DNA from: Kineococcus xinjiangensis
Lineage (GTDB): Bacteria > Actinomycetota > Actinomycetes > Actinomycetales > Kineococcaceae
Direction of reading: 5' to 3'
Length of the DNA stretch: 64,000 nucleotides
NCBI RefSeq assembly: GCF_002934625.1
Contig: NZ_PTJD01000009.1
Span: 1 to 64,000, forward strand
How positions within the stretch are numbered: position 1 is the stretch's first letter; the number at the start of each line of letters is the position of its first letter. Both the position numbers and the translations under genes were made by a program. Of the stretch, positions 43,865 through 54,421 are shown piece by piece. The notes under the pieces are model-generated. The model was given only the letters and a program-made list of their open reading frames with translations, had not been told where the DNA came from and ran no database searches.

Positions 43865-43902
43865 CGGACCCACGTACCCGCACCACCTGCGAGAGGAACC
43901 CC

Positions 43903-44238
43903 ATGTCGCTGCCCGAGCAGCCCCACGACGTCGTCGCCTGCGCGCTGACGGACCTGCCCCCCGGCGAGGTCGTCCGGCTGGACCTCGCCGTGCCCGTGAC
44001 GGTGTTCAACGTCGACGGCGAGCTGTACGCGATCGACGACACGTGCACCCACCAGGACGCGTCGCTGTCGGAGGGCTGGGTGGAGGACTGCGCCGTGGAG
44101 TGCCCCCTGCACTCGGCGATGTTCGACCTGGAGACGGGGATGCCCTCCGGCCCGCCGGCGTTCAAGCCGGTCCGCACCCATGCCGTGTCGGTGGTGGACG
44201 GGGACGTCGTGGTCCACGTGGGGACCCCGCGCGGCTGA
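43903..44238 (+). CDS. Rieske 2Fe-2S ferredoxin-like protein
   Basis: A 111-residue protein with ATG at 43903 and GAGAGGA upstream. The cluster ligands are C-T-H (about residue 47-49) and C-P-L-H (about 67-70), giving two Cys and two His. Its size and sequence fit the ferredoxin component of ring-hydroxylating dioxygenases (the biphenyl/phenylpropionate type), but no dioxygenase or reductase is nearby, so it probably serves another electron-transfer task. Confidence 0.92.
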   Translation: MSLPEQPHDVVACALTDLPPGEVVRLDLAVPVTVFNVDGELYAIDDTCTHQDASLSEGWVEDCAVECPLHSAMFDLETGMPSGPPAFKPVRTHAVSVVDGDVVVHVGTPRG

Positions 44239-46160: not shown

Positions 46161-48575
46161 TCAGGCCGTGGTCTCCACGACCCCCCAGGACCCGTCCCTA
46201 CCGGCAGAGCGCAGCACTGCGGCGCAGACGAGCGCGGGTTCGGCCTTGCCCCACAGCCAGCCCTGGCCGTGACGGACGCCCATCGCCTGCAGCGCCAGCC
46301 GCTGCTCCTCCGTCTCCACGCCCTCGGCGGTCATCGCCAGGCTCAGCGCGCGGCTCATGGCCTCCGCCGCCCGCACCAGCGCCTCGTCCGAGGGGTCGCT
46401 GCACAGGCCGCGGATGAAGCTGCGGTCCACCTTCACCCGGGTCACGGGGAAGCGGCGCAGGTAGCTCAGCGCGGAGTAGCCGGTGCCGAAGTCGTCGACG
46501 GCCAGGCCCACGCCGAGGCTGCGCAGGTCGTGCAGGACCTGCAGCGTGCCCTCGTCCTCGTGCAGCATCGAGGACTCGGTGATCTCCAGGAGGAGCGCGG
46601 AGCCCTCCACGCGCGCATCGCGCAGGATGTGGCCGACGGCCATGGGGAAGGCCCGGTCCAGCAGTTGCTGGGGCGAGACGTTGACCGACATCACGAACGA
46701 GGTGCCGACCACGCCCTCGGCCCGCCAGCGGGCGAGCTGCTCGACGGCCTCGCGCAGCACCTGCAGGCCGACGACGGTGATGAGGCCGGTGTCCTCCAGC
46801 AGCGGCACGAAGCGCACCGGGGAGACGGGCCCGCAGCCGGGCCGGGTCCAGCGCAGCAGCGCCTCCACGCCCGCCGGGCGCTGCGTGCCGATGTCCACGA
46901 TCGGCTGGTAGGCCACCTCCAGCGCCAGCTCGCCCACGGCCTGGCGCAGGTCGCGCTCCAGCTCCACGTCCTCGGCGGTGTCCCGGCGCATCGACTCGTC
47001 GAAGACCGCGACGCGGTTGCGCCCGGCGGCCTTGGCCCGCTGCATCGCCGCGTCGGCGTCGCGCAGGGCGGCGACCGCGCCCTCCACCACCGGCGCGATG
47101 CCCGCGGAGGCGGAGACCACGACCTCCGCGACGGGCAGCTGGACGGGTGCGGAGACCGCGGCCAGCAGCTTCTCGGCGAGGTCGCGGACCTCCTCCTCAC
47201 CACCGCGCAGGCCGAGCACGAACTCGTCACCGGCGAGGCGTCCGAGGACGGCGCCCGCCGGGGCCAGCGGCCGCAGGCGCTCCGCGGTGCGGCGGATGAG
47301 CTCGTCGCCGGAGTGGTGGCCGAAGGCGTCGTTGACGCGCTTGAACCCGTCGAGGTCCAGGAAGGCCACCCACAGCGGCGCCTGCTCCGCGCCGACGGGC
47401 TGGGCGTCGAGGAGGCGCTGCACCTCCGCGCGGTCGGGCAGGTCCGTCAGCGCGTCGTGGGTGGCGCGCCGCAGCAGCACGGCCCGGGCCCGGGCGTGGC
47501 CGTTGACCGCGGAGACCCCCCGGACGAGGAGGAGGCCGAAGACGAGGGCCAGGGCCAGGGTGGCGGCCGCGCGGTGCAGCTCCGCGTCGGGGCCGGGCAC
47601 GCTGACGGCGGCGATCAGCCCGGCGAGGGAGACGCACAGCAGCGTCAGCCGCCGCGGCGACCACGCCTGCACGGGGCTGCCGTCGGTTCGGGGGCCGGGC
47701 AACTGCCGGTCGGCCAGGGAGGGGTGCAGCCCGGCGGCCCCCACGAGCACGAAGCCCACGGCGAAGGGGGCGTCGATGACGGGCGGCCCGACCAGCCGGC
47801 CGGTCGTCCCCATGATCGCGTAGGCGAGGTCGCCGACGAACATCGCACCCATGGCCGCACCGAGGAGCCGGTGGCTGGTGCGGGGCCGGGCGGACAGCAG
47901 CAGGTCGAGCACGAGGGCGAGGACGACGACGTCGACGAGCGGGTAGATCCCGGCGAGCACGCTCGTCAGCGCGGGGCGCCCGGAGATGGCGGCCGTGGGC
48001 ACCACGAGGTGGGAGAGGGCGGCGAGGGCACCGGCGACGGTGAGGACGAGGCCGTCGCAGAGGACCTCCCGGCGCAGGCCGCCGTGCGCGCGGGCCAGCT
48101 TCGCCAGCCCGCAGATCAGGGCCGCGTAGCCGCTGAGGCTGAAGACGTCGCCCAGGTAGTGCACGGGGCCGTCCTGCGCGAGGCTCCAGGGCCGGATCAG
48201 GATCCCCGCCAGGAAGAGGACCATGGCGAGCGCGATGCGCTGCCAGCCGCCGCGCACGCGGGGCCGGTGCAGCTGGATGCCGCCCACGAGGCCCCCGAGC
48301 GCGAAGACGGCGGCGAGCAGCACGAGCAGCGGGGTCAGGGCCTGGGTGGCCGGCACCAGCGGGAGCACGACCAGGGCGGTGCAGCCGGTCAGCAGCAGGA
48401 GGACCATCCGGCGCGGGTGCGCGTCCGCCGCCGACTGGGCCGAGGAGACGGCCCGGGACAGCGTCGTGCGCATCCACGTCCTCCGTCCCGTGCCCGCCGC
48501 GGCCCCGCGCGGCTCCGCCGCCACCGGGGGGCCCATCGGCCCGCCGCTGGGACGCCCGTCCCTGATCGATTCCAT
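46161..48575 (-). CDS. Membrane GGDEF-EAL cyclic di-GMP enzyme
   Basis: An 804-residue protein. About eight hydrophobic segments fill residues 50-360. The GGDEF domain (about 370-530) has the signature R-L-A-G-D-E-F, an AGDEF variant that is active in some enzymes. The EAL domain (about 550-795) is complete by eye: G-V-E-A-L-L-R-W, N-V-S-P-Q-Q-L, L-E-I-T-E-S, D-D-F-G-T-G-Y-S-A-L-S-Y-L and V-E-T-E-E-Q. It may therefore make, degrade or only sense cyclic di-GMP. It is divergent from the ARWMG-repeat protein gene, 300 bp apart. Confidence 0.92.
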   Translation of the reverse strand: MESIRDGRPSGGPMGPPVAAEPRGAAAGTGRRTWMRTTLSRAVSSAQSAADAHPRRMVLLLLTGCTALVVLPLVPATQALTPLLVLLAAVFALGGLVGGIQLHRPRVRGGWQRIALAMVLFLAGILIRPWSLAQDGPVHYLGDVFSLSGYAALICGLAKLARAHGGLRREVLCDGLVLTVAGALAALSHLVVPTAAISGRPALTSVLAGIYPLVDVVVLALVLDLLLSARPRTSHRLLGAAMGAMFVGDLAYAIMGTTGRLVGPPVIDAPFAVGFVLVGAAGLHPSLADRQLPGPRTDGSPVQAWSPRRLTLLCVSLAGLIAAVSVPGPDAELHRAAATLALALVFGLLLVRGVSAVNGHARARAVLLRRATHDALTDLPDRAEVQRLLDAQPVGAEQAPLWVAFLDLDGFKRVNDAFGHHSGDELIRRTAERLRPLAPAGAVLGRLAGDEFVLGLRGGEEEVRDLAEKLLAAVSAPVQLPVAEVVVSASAGIAPVVEGAVAALRDADAAMQRAKAAGRNRVAVFDESMRRDTAEDVELERDLRQAVGELALEVAYQPIVDIGTQRPAGVEALLRWTRPGCGPVSPVRFVPLLEDTGLITVVGLQVLREAVEQLARWRAEGVVGTSFVMSVNVSPQQLLDRAFPMAVGHILRDARVEGSALLLEITESSMLHEDEGTLQVLHDLRSLGVGLAVDDFGTGYSALSYLRRFPVTRVKVDRSFIRGLCSDPSDEALVRAAEAMSRALSLAMTAEGVETEEQRLALQAMGVRHGQGWLWGKAEPALVCAAVLRSAGRDGSWGVVETTA

Positions 48576-48875: not shown

Positions 48876-49157
48876 ATGTCGCACCGAGGCATCAGCTGGA
48901 AGGGCCCCCGCCGTCTCGCCGCCCTCACCCTCGGTGCGGCCGTGCTCGCCGCCCCGCTCGCCACCGCCGGCAGCGCCGCCGCGGACACGAAGGCCCGCTG
49001 GATGGGCAAGGGCACCACCGTCGAGGCCCGCTGGATGGGCACCGAGGCCCGCTGGATGGGCACCGAGGCCCGCTGGATGGGCACCGAGACCCAGGCCCGC
49101 TGGATGGGCGTCGAGACCCAGGCCCGCTGGATGGCCGTCGACACTCAGGGCGACTGA
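48876..49157 (+). CDS. Exported mini-protein of six ARWMG repeats
   Basis: A 93-residue precursor with AAGGGAG upstream of the ATG. A Sec signal is clear: K-G-P-R-R, a hydrophobic core L-A-A-L-T-L-G-A-A-V-L-A-A-P-L-A, and S-A-A-A before a likely cut near residue 36. The mature ~57 residues consist almost only of A-R-W-M-G units at 40, 51, 58, 65, 74 and (A-R-W-M-A) 83, joined by short T-E, T-E-T-Q or V-E-T-Q links. No Cys, anchor or known family is seen. It lies 127 bp before a GGDEF-EAL gene on the same strand and is divergent from another. A secreted signal peptide precursor, an adhesive or a surface-binding peptide are all possible. Confidence 0.8.
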   Translation: MSHRGISWKGPRRLAALTLGAAVLAAPLATAGSAAADTKARWMGKGTTVEARWMGTEARWMGTEARWMGTETQARWMGVETQARWMAVDTQGD

Positions 49158-49283
49158 GTCCCCAGCAGAGTGTGACGAAAGCTGGCTTACGGGCCAGACT
49201 GGTACCTCACGGGCGCCCCACGTGCACATCGCGCGCGGGGCGCCCTCCAGTGGGACTCCAGGAGTTCTCGAAGCGGGGGCGCG

Positions 49284-51860
49284 ATGAGCGGGGCACCGAC
49301 GTCGTCCCAGGGGGGACAGCCTCCTCCTGCCCGGACGACCCGGCAGCCGGGCTTCCGGCTGCTCAGCCCACCCGTGCTCACCTCGGCGCTGACCGCCGTC
49401 CTCGCCGCGGCCGGGATCGCGCTCACGCTGCAGGTCCCGGAAACCCCCCTCCTCACCGCCCCCAGCGGGACGGCACTGCTCGTGGCCACCGCGGCACTGT
49501 TCGTGGCCTTCTTCGTCACCGAGCTGGCCCAGGCGCTCGTGGAGATCCGACGCCAGGCCTACGCCTTCTCGCTCTCCGGCATCCCGATGATCGTGGGGCT
49601 GCTCTACCTGCCGCCCCTGGCGCTGATCGTCGGCCGCCTCGTCGCGACGACCATCGCCTTCGCCCTGCAGCGGGCGTCCCCGCTGAAGTTCACCTACAAC
49701 AGCGCGGCGTACCTGCTTGAGTCGGCGCTCATCATCACGATCGCCCACCGGTTGGTCGGCGACGGTGCCGCCCTCGACCTGCAGACGGCGCTGTGGTGCT
49801 ACGTCAGCCTCGCGATCGTCGACCTGCTGATGAGCGGGCTCGTCCTGCTGGTGATCACCATCAACCAGGGCATGGTGAGCAAGGAGGAGATCGCGGGGGC
49901 GCTGATCCCCGCCAGTGCGTTCGTCGCGCTGAACTGCACCGTCGCCTTCATCGGCACCGTGCTCCTGAGCGCCGGAGCCCTGGGCACCGCGCTCCTGCTG
50001 GCGTTCGTGGCCGTGACGGCCGTGATCTACCGCGGCTACCTCATCCTGCGGCGACGGCACTCCTCCCTGGTCCTGGTGCAGGAGTTCATCGAACAGGGCG
50101 AGATCTCCGGCACGGTCGAGGAGGTCGCCGAGCGGCTGCTCACGCACGTCCGCACCCTCGTGCGCGCCGCGCACGTCGAGCTGACCCTCCACGACGACGA
50201 CCCCTCCACGGCCACCCGCATCAGCGTGGACGAGGCCCACCGGGTGACCATCGAGTCGGGCGAGGAGGTCGCCCTGGACTGGCCCTCGCTCCACGCCCGG
50301 CAGGGCGGGGAAGCGCTCCTCCTCGGCGAGCGCGGCGGCACGCCGGGTCAGCAGCGGTGGCTGCGCCAGCGCGGCGCACGTGACGCCCTCGTGGTGCCCC
50401 TGTCCAGGTCGGAGACCGCCGGCGTGCTCGTGGCCCTCGACCGGCTCGGCGACACGATCACCTTCACGCCCGACGACCTGGCCCTGCTGCAGGCGCTGGC
50501 CGGCCACCTGGCCGTCGCGGTCCACAGCCGCCGCCTCATGCAGCAGCTGCGCTACGAGGCCACCCACGACGCCCTGACGGGCCTGCCCAACCGCACCATG
50601 CTCGGCGAGCGCCTCTCCGAGGCCCTGGGCTCCGAGCGGGGTGCGGCCGTCGTGCTGCTCGACCTCAACCGCTTCAAGGAGGTCAACGACGCGCTGGGCC
50701 ACCACGTCGGCGACCAGCTCCTGCGGGTGGTCGCCCGGCGGCTGCGGGAGACGGTGCGACCCGAGGCGACCGTGGCCCGCCTCGGCGGCGACGAGTTCGC
50801 GCTGCTGCTGCCGTCGGAGGCGGGCGCCGACATCCAGGCCGACGCGCTGGCGGTCGCCCACCGCGTCGAGCGGGCCCTGCGCACCCCCGTCGACCTGGCG
50901 GGGGTGAGTGTGAGCACGGACGCGAGCCTGGGCGTCGCCGTCGCGGCGCCGGGCGAGAGCCACACCGACCTGCTGCGCCACGCGGACACCGCCATGTACG
51001 CCGGCAAGACGGCGGGCACGGGCGTGATGGTCTACACCCCCGCGCTGGACCGCGGCCGGGCGGAGCGGCTCGCCCTGCTGGCCGACCTGCACGCCGCCCT
51101 GGAGGAGGGCGGGCTGCACCTGCGCTACCAGCCGAAGCTGGACCTGGCCCGCGGTGCGGTGACGAGCGTGGAGGCCCTGGTGCGCTGGGCCCATCCGGCG
51201 CTGGGTCCCCTGACCCCCGACACCTTCATCCCGCTCGCGGAGTCCACCGGCCTCATCGACCAGCTCACCAAGGTGGTGCTCTCGCAGGCCCTGCGGCAGT
51301 GCCGGGCGTGGCAGGACGAGGGCTACGAGCTCGCCGTCGCGGTGAACCTGTCCGCCCGCAACATCAACGACACGTCGCTGCCCGAGCACGTCGCGGGGGC
51401 GATCGTCGAGGCGGGGGTGCCCGCGCGCAAGCTGATCCTGGAGATCACCGAGAGCAGCGTGATGGGCGACCCGGAGCGCACCGTGCCCGTCCTGCAGCGC
51501 CTCTCCGACATCGGGGTGACGCTGTCGCTGGACGACTTCGGCACCGGGCACTCCAGCCTGTCGTACCTGCAGCGGCTGCCCGTGCGGGAGCTCAAGATCG
51601 ACCGCTCGTTCGTGCGCGGGCTGTCCCTGCCGCGGGAGGCGCAGGCCAGCGCGATCCTGGTCCGCAGCATCGTCGGGCTGGGCCGCAGCCTGGACCTGCG
51701 GATCGTCGCGGAGGGTGTGGAGAACGCGGAGACGCTGGACCAGCTGCGCGACTACGGCTGCGACGTCATCCAGGGCTACTACGTGGGCAGGCCGCTGCCC
51801 GCGGAGGACGTCGACGCCGCGGGGCCGTTCCGCGTCCTGATGATGGAGGGTCCCGCCTGA
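49284..51860 (+). CDS. Membrane GAF-GGDEF-EAL cyclic di-GMP enzyme
   Basis: An 858-residue protein. Seven or eight membrane segments occupy about 28-255. A GAF-like sensor follows (about 270-415), then GGDEF (about 420-585) with intact R-L-G-G-D-E-F near residue 501, and EAL (about 600-850) with S-V-E-A-L-V-R-W near 629, N-L-S-A-R-N, L-E-I-T-E-S, D-D-F-G-T-G-H-S-S-L and V-E-N-A-E-T. Both catalytic signatures are complete, so either activity is possible. The upstream ARWMG-repeat gene is close enough (127 bp) for shared transcription. Confidence 0.94.
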   Translation: MSGAPTSSQGGQPPPARTTRQPGFRLLSPPVLTSALTAVLAAAGIALTLQVPETPLLTAPSGTALLVATAALFVAFFVTELAQALVEIRRQAYAFSLSGIPMIVGLLYLPPLALIVGRLVATTIAFALQRASPLKFTYNSAAYLLESALIITIAHRLVGDGAALDLQTALWCYVSLAIVDLLMSGLVLLVITINQGMVSKEEIAGALIPASAFVALNCTVAFIGTVLLSAGALGTALLLAFVAVTAVIYRGYLILRRRHSSLVLVQEFIEQGEISGTVEEVAERLLTHVRTLVRAAHVELTLHDDDPSTATRISVDEAHRVTIESGEEVALDWPSLHARQGGEALLLGERGGTPGQQRWLRQRGARDALVVPLSRSETAGVLVALDRLGDTITFTPDDLALLQALAGHLAVAVHSRRLMQQLRYEATHDALTGLPNRTMLGERLSEALGSERGAAVVLLDLNRFKEVNDALGHHVGDQLLRVVARRLRETVRPEATVARLGGDEFALLLPSEAGADIQADALAVAHRVERALRTPVDLAGVSVSTDASLGVAVAAPGESHTDLLRHADTAMYAGKTAGTGVMVYTPALDRGRAERLALLADLHAALEEGGLHLRYQPKLDLARGAVTSVEALVRWAHPALGPLTPDTFIPLAESTGLIDQLTKVVLSQALRQCRAWQDEGYELAVAVNLSARNINDTSLPEHVAGAIVEAGVPARKLILEITESSVMGDPERTVPVLQRLSDIGVTLSLDDFGTGHSSLSYLQRLPVRELKIDRSFVRGLSLPREAQASAILVRSIVGLGRSLDLRIVAEGVENAETLDQLRDYGCDVIQGYYVGRPLPAEDVDAAGPFRVLMMEGPA

Positions 51861-52378: not shown

Positions 52379-54421
52379 TCACCAGATGCGGACGCGCTCC
52401 TCCGGAGCCATCCAGAGCCCGTCGCCCTCGGTGACCCCGAAGGCGTCGTGGAACTCGTCGAGGTTGCGGACCACCGCGTTGCAGCGGAACTCCGGCGGCG
52501 AGTGCGGGTCCACCGCGAGGCGGCGGGCGGCCTCCTCCGGACGGACCTTGCCCCGCCACACCGCGGCCCAGCCGAAGAACAGCCGCTGCTCACCGGTCAG
52601 GCCGTCGAGGACCGGGGCCTCCTTCCCGTCGAGGGAGAGCAGGTAGGCCTTGTGCGCGATGGTCAGGCCGCCCAGGTCGCCGATGTTCTCCCCGACCGTC
52701 AGCGCGCCGTTGACGCGCTGGCCGGGCAGCTCCTCCGGCTCCAGGGCGTCGAACTGCGCGATCAGCGCCGCGGTGCGCTTGCCGAACTCCTCGCGGTCGG
52801 CGTCGGTCCACCAGTCGCGCAGGTTGCCGTCGCCGTCGTACTTCGCCCCCTGGTCGTCGAAGCCGTGGCCGATCTCGTGGCCGATGACCGCACCGATGCC
52901 GCCGTAGTTGGCGGCGTCGTCCGCGTCGGGGTCGAAGAACGGCGGGCGCAGGATCGCCGCGGGAAAGACGATCTCGTTCATGCCGGGGTTGTAGTAGGCG
53001 TTGACCGTCTGCGGCGTCATGAACCACTCGTCGCGGTCGACGGGGCCGCCGAGCTTGCCCAGCTCGTGGCGCAGGTCGAACTCGTTGGAGCGGCGGACGT
53101 TGCCGAGGAGGTCGTCGCGCTCGACGACGAGGCCGGAGTAGTCGCGCCACTTCACGGGGTGGCCGACCTTCGGGGTGAACTTGCCGAGCTTCTCCAGCGC
53201 CCGCGCCTTCGTCTCCTCCGTCATCCAGTCCAGGGCCTGGATGTCCTGCCGGTAGGCCTCGACGAGGTTGGCCACGAGCTCGTCCATGCGGGCCTTGGCG
53301 ACCGGGGGGTAGTGCCGCTGCACGTAGAGCTTGCCGAGCGCCTCCCCCATCGCCCCCTCGACCAGGCCCACGCCGCGCTTCCAGCGCTCCCGCAGCTGCG
53401 GCACCCCCGACAGGGTCGTGCCGTAGAAGGCGAAGTTCTCGTCCACGAACGCGGAGCTGAGGTAGGCGGCGGACCCGTGGACGATCCGCCACTGCAGCCA
53501 CTCCCGCCACTGCGGCACCCGCTCGGGGGTGAGCAGGCCGGACAGCCCGGCGAGGAAGCCCGGCTGGCGCACGACCACCTCCGCGACGGCCGCGTCGTCG
53601 ATGCCGGCCGCCGCGAGCCACGCCGCCCAGTCCAGCGCGGGCAGCAGCTCCTCCAGCGCCGCGCGGTCCAGGAGGTTGTAGGTCAGGGTCGCGTCGCGGT
53701 TCTTGACCCGGTCCCAGTGGTGGGCGGCGACGTCGGTCTCCAGGGCGAGGATCCGCTCGGCCGCGCCCGCCGGGTCGGGCAGGCCGGCCAGCTCCAGCAT
53801 CCGCTGCACGTGGTCGCGGAAGGCGGCGCGGATCTCCGCGTACTGCTCCTCGCGGTAGTAGGACTCGTCCGGCAGGGACAGCCCGTACTGGGTGACGTGG
53901 ACGAGGTAGCGGTCCGACTGCTTGGAGTCGGTGTCCACGTAGAAGGCGAAGGGGCCGTTGACGCCCTGGCGCAGCAGCCGCCCCCAGGCGCGGACCAGCC
54001 CGTCGACGTCCGCCACGGCCGCCGCCAGCGCCAGCTCCTGCTCCAGCGGGGACGCGCCCAGGGCCTCGACGGCGTCGACGTCCATGAAGCTGGCGTACAG
54101 GTCGCCGATGGCGCGGGCCTCACCCTCGGCGGAGGGGTCCGCCGACACCTCCTCGACGATGGCGCGGACCTGCTCCTCGGACTCGTCCCGCAGGCGGATG
54201 AACGCACCGTCGAGGGCGCGGTCGGCGGGGATCTCCGCGCTCGCCAGCCAGGCGCCGTTGACGTGGCGGAACAGGTCGTCCTGCGGGCGGACGGCCGGGT
54301 CGATCGCGGAGGGGTCGATGCCGGAGGTGCGCGAGCCCGACGCGCGAGCGGCCGAGGCGCCGGGGGTGGTGGCACCAGAGGTGGAGGTGTCGCTGCCGGT
54401 CAGGTCGGTGCCGGAGGTCAT
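52379..54421 (-). CDS. M13 family zinc metallopeptidase
   Basis: A 680-residue protein. The active site is H-E-I-G-H-G-F-D-D (about 515), with the third ligand Glu in G-E-N-I-G-D-L-G-G downstream and N-A-Y-Y-N-P upstream, the neprilysin/PepO signature. The N-terminal [11 protein letters not shown] is also typical. No signal peptide is present, so it is probably a cytosolic oligopeptidase (PepO type) trimming short peptides. The first ~38 residues are low-complexity Ser/Thr/Ala, so a later start is possible. Confidence 0.93.

Follow-up and report, generated by a model that had tools for sequence, protein, structure and literature searches.

A small signal-bearing repeat protein of Kineococcus xinjiangensis is encoded next to a membrane GGDEF-EAL enzyme in a two-gene module conserved across Actinomycetes

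Cyclic di-GMP (c-di-GMP) classically controls surface adhesins, and in the LapD-LapG-LapA system a membrane GGDEF-EAL protein with degenerate catalytic sites is paired with an exported protease. Which signals most GGDEF-EAL proteins respond to is, to our knowledge, not known. The first 64,000 nt of K. xinjiangensis contig NZ_PTJD01000009.1 (the window) carry a small gene for a probably exported protein made of short repeats, located directly upstream of a gene for a membrane-anchored GAF-GGDEF-EAL protein. An earlier note on this sequence had suggested that the two form a peptide-to-c-di-GMP signalling pair.

The module resembles LapD-LapG-LapA in combining a membrane GGDEF-EAL protein with an exported protease, which is present at many of its loci, but differs in the protease fold, in the membrane domain, in its intact catalytic motifs and in the presence of an exported repeat peptide. 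DibA, a membrane GGDEF-EAL protein, shares its domain order and catalytic domains with the partner enzyme and is the best NCBIfam match, though the score is far below the DibA cut-off and the N-terminal membrane domain of the partner has no name. Multi-copy precursors of the yeast alpha-factor type likewise begin with a signal peptide, behind which a short unit recurs in identical form several times, at variable spacing; the window protein, however, is bacterial and its partner is a c-di-GMP enzyme, and its processing sites and receptor are hypothetical. The enzymes are of a known kind, and the same goes for subtilases and pentapeptide repeats; what seems to be new is that they are paired with an exported peptide of the multi-copy type. 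Searches of an open-access literature library found no description of the pair, of the subtilase tail described below or of the peptides.

The repeat gene, its partner and their surroundings

The open reading frame of the repeat protein has an ATG start, an AGGGAG Shine-Dalgarno sequence and a GC3 of 0.95, and the N-terminus of its product is basic and then hydrophobic, with an AXA site (SAAA followed by DT) of Sec type as judged by eye (Table 1). The protein is therefore probably exported via Sec, in agreement with the earlier note, and it combines a signal peptide with a short unit repeated at least three times. The ARW cores begin at residues 40, 51, 58, 65, 74 and 83, which reproduces the spacings of 11, 7, 7, 9 and 9 reported previously; the six units, all read as ARWMG in the earlier note, comprise five ARWMG and a sixth that is ARWMA. 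Tandem Repeats Finder (TRF) reported a repeat inside the coding sequence with a 21-bp period and 98% match. As the ARWM codons are identical at the DNA level, the array has expanded recently.

Table 1 Features of the repeat gene and its partner in the window.
Feature	Coordinates	Strand	Basis or remark
Gene for small exported repeat protein, 93 aa	48876..49157	+	ORF call, sequence inspection
Signal peptide of Sec type; cleavage probably behind residue 36 (SAAA)	48876..48983	+	sequence inspection
Six ARWM(G/A) units, whole span	48993..49136	+	sequence inspection, TRF
ARWM(G/A) units singly	48993-49007, 49026-49040, 49047-49061, 49068-49082, 49095-49109, 49122-49136	+	
Intercistronic hairpin, 9+5 bp stem, possible differential-expression element	49211..49245	+	
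Partner gene, TM-GAF-GGDEF-EAL protein, 858 aa	49284..51860	+	domain search; motif check
N-terminal multi-helix membrane domain of the partner	49350..50100	+	no Pfam/NCBIfam model, no solved relative found

The protein matches no Pfam or NCBIfam family, and no sequence relative was found in genome contigs, in viral contigs or in family- or class-level genomes; the earlier note, too, had recognised no family. Weak matches from protein searches were rejected as signal-peptide or low-complexity noise. A search of translated genomes for the motif, as the earlier note had advised, did not extend it: the three-fold RWM pattern retrieved an ARWMG-type repeat from the genome collections in the window protein only, and the RW-repeat matches were unrelated proteins or frame artefacts. 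Rfam gave no match. A sigma-28-like GCCGAT box 50 bp upstream of the gene was dropped, being absent from other module loci. The AlphaFold model from the single sequence is one long helix of modest confidence and was given little weight.

The repeat gene is on the same strand as the partner gene, within 900 bp upstream of the segment encoding its membrane domain, and the gap between the genes is 126 bp, one less than had been counted. The neighbour is indeed membrane-anchored, and GAF, GGDEF and EAL domains were recognised in it; the GGDEF, EAL and DDFGTG motifs are intact and the GGDEF and EAL motifs look catalytic. The intergenic region (126 nt) has a folding z of -3.4, and strong structure occurs also at several other module loci; together with the hairpin this suggests that the two genes are expressed unequally from a single transcript. 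Structure prediction of the membrane domain gave a high-confidence model (pLDDT 90.8), and a fold search with the membrane-GAF model returned GAF domains only. On inspection, the modelled domain seems to expose only short outside loops, and consequently there is no evident place where a free peptide would bind.

Adjacency to a GGDEF-EAL gene alone means little in this organism, because its genome is very rich in c-di-GMP genes, with about 49 GGDEF-EAL matches in 4.6 Mb (E <= 1e-60). Both genes flanking the repeat gene encode such proteins, as the earlier note had stated, but only the downstream one is in the module. The upstream neighbour (46161-48575, minus strand) is divergently transcribed and encodes an 804-aa membrane GGDEF-EAL protein with a hydrophobic N-terminus; it is a separate, independently conserved gene. 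AGDEF replaces GGDEF in its product, orthologs about 54% identical occur across Kineococcus with no repeat gene near them, and its probable role is that of a phosphodiesterase or a receptor with no relation to the module. On the other side, a gene for an M13 (neprilysin-type) metallopeptidase adjoins the module (52379-54421, minus strand). Further away, at about 43890-44238 (plus strand), a long ORF ends in a segment that looks like a small ferredoxin of Rieske type (CTHQDASLSEG...CPLHSAMFD).

Conservation of the pairing

Two near relatives of the partner enzyme, one in Kineococcus rubinsiae (L054/L105) and the other at another locus in the window genome (L077/L106), are each directly preceded by an S8 subtilase gene; the final 60-90 residues of the subtilase consist of tryptophan repeats with a 5-residue period, e.g. 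SARWSGDGWESARWSGSAWQSARWSSARWS. In 15 of these W-tailed subtilases the catalytic residues Asp, His and Ser do not vary; the catalytic domain belongs to PF00082, and no Pfam or NCBIfam model matches the tail. These proteins and the window protein are alike in their predicted export, in ending in short W repeats, in the RW core found in the related clade and in occupying the same slot before the same enzyme, but the window protein has no S8 domain (it has no Pfam match) and its units are spaced at 7, 9 or 11 residues rather than 5. No subtilase or W-tail gene adjoins the gene for the paralogue most similar to the window enzyme (L065/L107, 56% identical). About eight GGCAGT hexanucleotide repeats, a possible phase-variation tract, lie right before the start of this paralogous gene (about 1400-1490 of L065, on G000:C14).

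Searched with a membrane-GAF profile, 32 of 396 genomes from the order proved to contain the family, many with a W-tailed subtilase immediately upstream; a profile of the tail only matched in 41 of 395 genomes of the class. At the 35 loci ascertained by the tail and having enough downstream sequence, the enzyme gene is next in 27 by tblastn, and it is next and on the same strand in about 30 by the membrane-domain profile. In the reverse direction, 79 assessable loci of the class, ascertained by the membrane domain alone, have just upstream an S8 subtilase or W-tail (39), a small repeat protein (11) or neither of these, with no recognised repeat partner (29).

Where the subtilase is missing, the slot is often filled by a gene for a small repeat protein that has a signal peptide and contains its unit 2 to 20 times. 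Most units contain tryptophan: AHRWE (9 copies), GHRWD (10), AHRWD (20), ASNGWQ (4), GTGWH (4), GASWN (3), GTSWH (3), GSGWH (3), ATWN (4), SHTWE (4), ASIWN (3) and GTRWG (2), beside ARWM (6) at the window locus. Others are without it, namely GLSLN (4), GASLT (18) and GARLT (11). The GASLT and GARLT peptides match Pentapeptide repeats (PF00805) and are true members, and the W-tails share the 5-residue period of that family; the window protein, in contrast, has neither the A(D/N)LXX period nor the Leu/Phe position and no Pfam match. The L158 locus encodes, between subtilase and enzyme in one operon, a small peptide in which RGSSWA occurs twice, and L160, which has a small peptide, is nearly identical to L158, where the subtilase is also present. 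At L157 and L176 the W-tailed subtilase gene adjoins the enzyme gene in opposite orientation, so that the link outlasts the loss of co-transcription. An apparent stand-alone tail (L147) was rejected as a frameshifted subtilase.

An objective scan for ORFs of at most 300 aa with a hydrophobic signal and a 4-mer occurring at least three times was applied to 143 loci (1.10 Mb). The slot, which makes up 5.8% of strand-bases, held 13 of the 19 qualifying ORFs (P about 1e-12), or 12 of 18 after removal of the window locus (P 2e-11); as the scan was designed after examples had been seen, these P values are a guide and not a strict test. The six matches outside the slot were all of low complexity, and 45 control loci of other GGDEF-EAL genes gave one spurious match. 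A gene for a repeat or W-tail protein and one for a TM-GAF-GGDEF-EAL enzyme thus form a conserved two-gene module across Actinomycetes, and the window enzyme belongs to the family that has such partners elsewhere. The proposal of a peptide-to-c-di-GMP pair therefore stands as a genetic module confined to the downstream gene, and the signalling, which we infer, would be its function. Conservation in relatives, on which the earlier note had staked its idea, concerns the partner enzyme, the slot before it and the build of an exported protein of short repeats; the ARWMG motif itself was found in the window protein only.

Possible descent of the repeats, and selection on their units in relatives

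The window enzyme falls, in a tree of the enzymes, in an 11-row clade (SH-aLRT 100), eight rows of which have a W-tailed subtilase. The tail tryptophan is preceded by arginine in 52% of cases in this clade vs 9% elsewhere, and the ARW core of the window protein matches the RW-type tails (ARW/SRW) of its clade, with a different spacing. In the window genome the ARW repeat gene takes the place of the subtilase, and descent of the repeat protein from a subtilase tail is plausible from these likenesses. On a larger enzyme tree the small-peptide label changes about seven times.

The units of the relatives, defined by the W position alone, are almost all identical in protein, with one exception (GATWN/AATWN). 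Their pS is 0.34 and their pN 0.035 (pN/pS about 0.1), part of this pN coming from TCN-AGC serine paths without amino-acid change; serine inside identical units is coded by both TCN and AGC. The spacers differ in length and sequence, and replication slippage alone does not account for the identity of the units, because it would have homogenised the spacers too. In the relatives, then, the unit is kept identical within the precursor by selection. Selection is shown for the relatives only, the window units having zero synonymous differences. A conserved unit between divergent spacers suggests that it is the unit which is recognised. From species to species within one family the unit differs (ASNGW, GTGWH, GASWN, GTSWH, GSGWH, GATWN, ASIWN) and is uniform within each precursor, as would be expected for specific ligands; concerted structural evolution is the alternative.

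Possible roles of the repeats

The repeats may be an extracytoplasmic partner, probably a ligand, of the membrane enzyme, with c-di-GMP as output, a reading to which we give an even chance. The repeat protein would leave the cell via Sec, its units would be freed by processing or presented on the surface, and the membrane domain of the partner would recognise them. Recognition would shift the balance of diguanylate cyclase and phosphodiesterase activities and so adjust c-di-GMP to the condition of the cell surface or to whether kin are present. With the unit present in several identical copies, more peptide would be made or avidity would be higher, as with pheromone precursors of the multi-copy kind; where the partner is a subtilase, this protease would bear the tail and might also release it. 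Against a ligand stand the 29 of 79 enzymes with no recognised upstream repeat partner and the 7/9/11 spacing in the window, which departs from the 5-residue period of the tails. Adjacency of genes is no proof of physical interaction.

Alternatively, the repeat proteins and W-tails could be surface or matrix elements (adhesive, or binding cell wall or membrane) that are co-regulated with the enzyme, the repeats serving avidity and nothing being sensed. The classical control of adhesins by c-di-GMP would fit such a role, the 5-periodic tails and the two PF00805 peptides suggest a rigid structural fold, and the AHRWD/AHRWE versions reach 20 copies. Many slot peptides, however, are tiny (62-77 aa), with three or four invariant units and unequal spacers, unlike a regular structural polymer, and no sorting motif was noticed at the C-termini; we consider this role unlikely, if a serious competitor. 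Still less probable is an inside-out control like that of LapD, by which the enzyme would read c-di-GMP and control the exported protease, with W-tails and repeat peptides as a docking element or competing substrate of the subtilase. About half of the enzyme family is paired with a subtilase of invariant catalytic D, H and S, the L158 operon joins subtilase, peptide and enzyme, and the window genome has a W-tailed subtilase elsewhere. Yet the window enzyme looks catalytic where LapD is degenerate, the NCBIfam LapD model scores 153 bits against a cut-off of 1020, and peptide-only loci lack a local protease. It is very improbable that the gene is a remnant, a decayed and slipping minisatellite ORF without function left after loss of the subtilase gene, since its DNA-identical, recently expanded units and the failure to find an ortholog in the genomes searched are set against an intact start, Shine-Dalgarno sequence and signal peptide with high GC3, small repeat genes in the same slot of several lineages (about seven label changes) and purifying selection on the units in those lineages.

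The ligand reading can be carried further, more tentatively and with somewhat greater doubt than confidence: the repeat proteins may represent an undescribed class of bacterial multi-copy peptide signals, in which each species has a self-specific unit as ligand, sensed without intermediary by a membrane enzyme that both synthesises and degrades c-di-GMP, the W-tailed subtilases being the protease-borne form. An exported short-repeat partner, encoded beside more than half of one receptor family, offers a well-defined candidate for the input, open to direct testing with synthetic peptide. If the ligand reading is true, it would account for a widespread subtilase tail that Pfam and NCBIfam do not model, and peptide communication would be linked to c-di-GMP in Actinomycetes, a kind of pair with no counterpart in the open-access literature searched.
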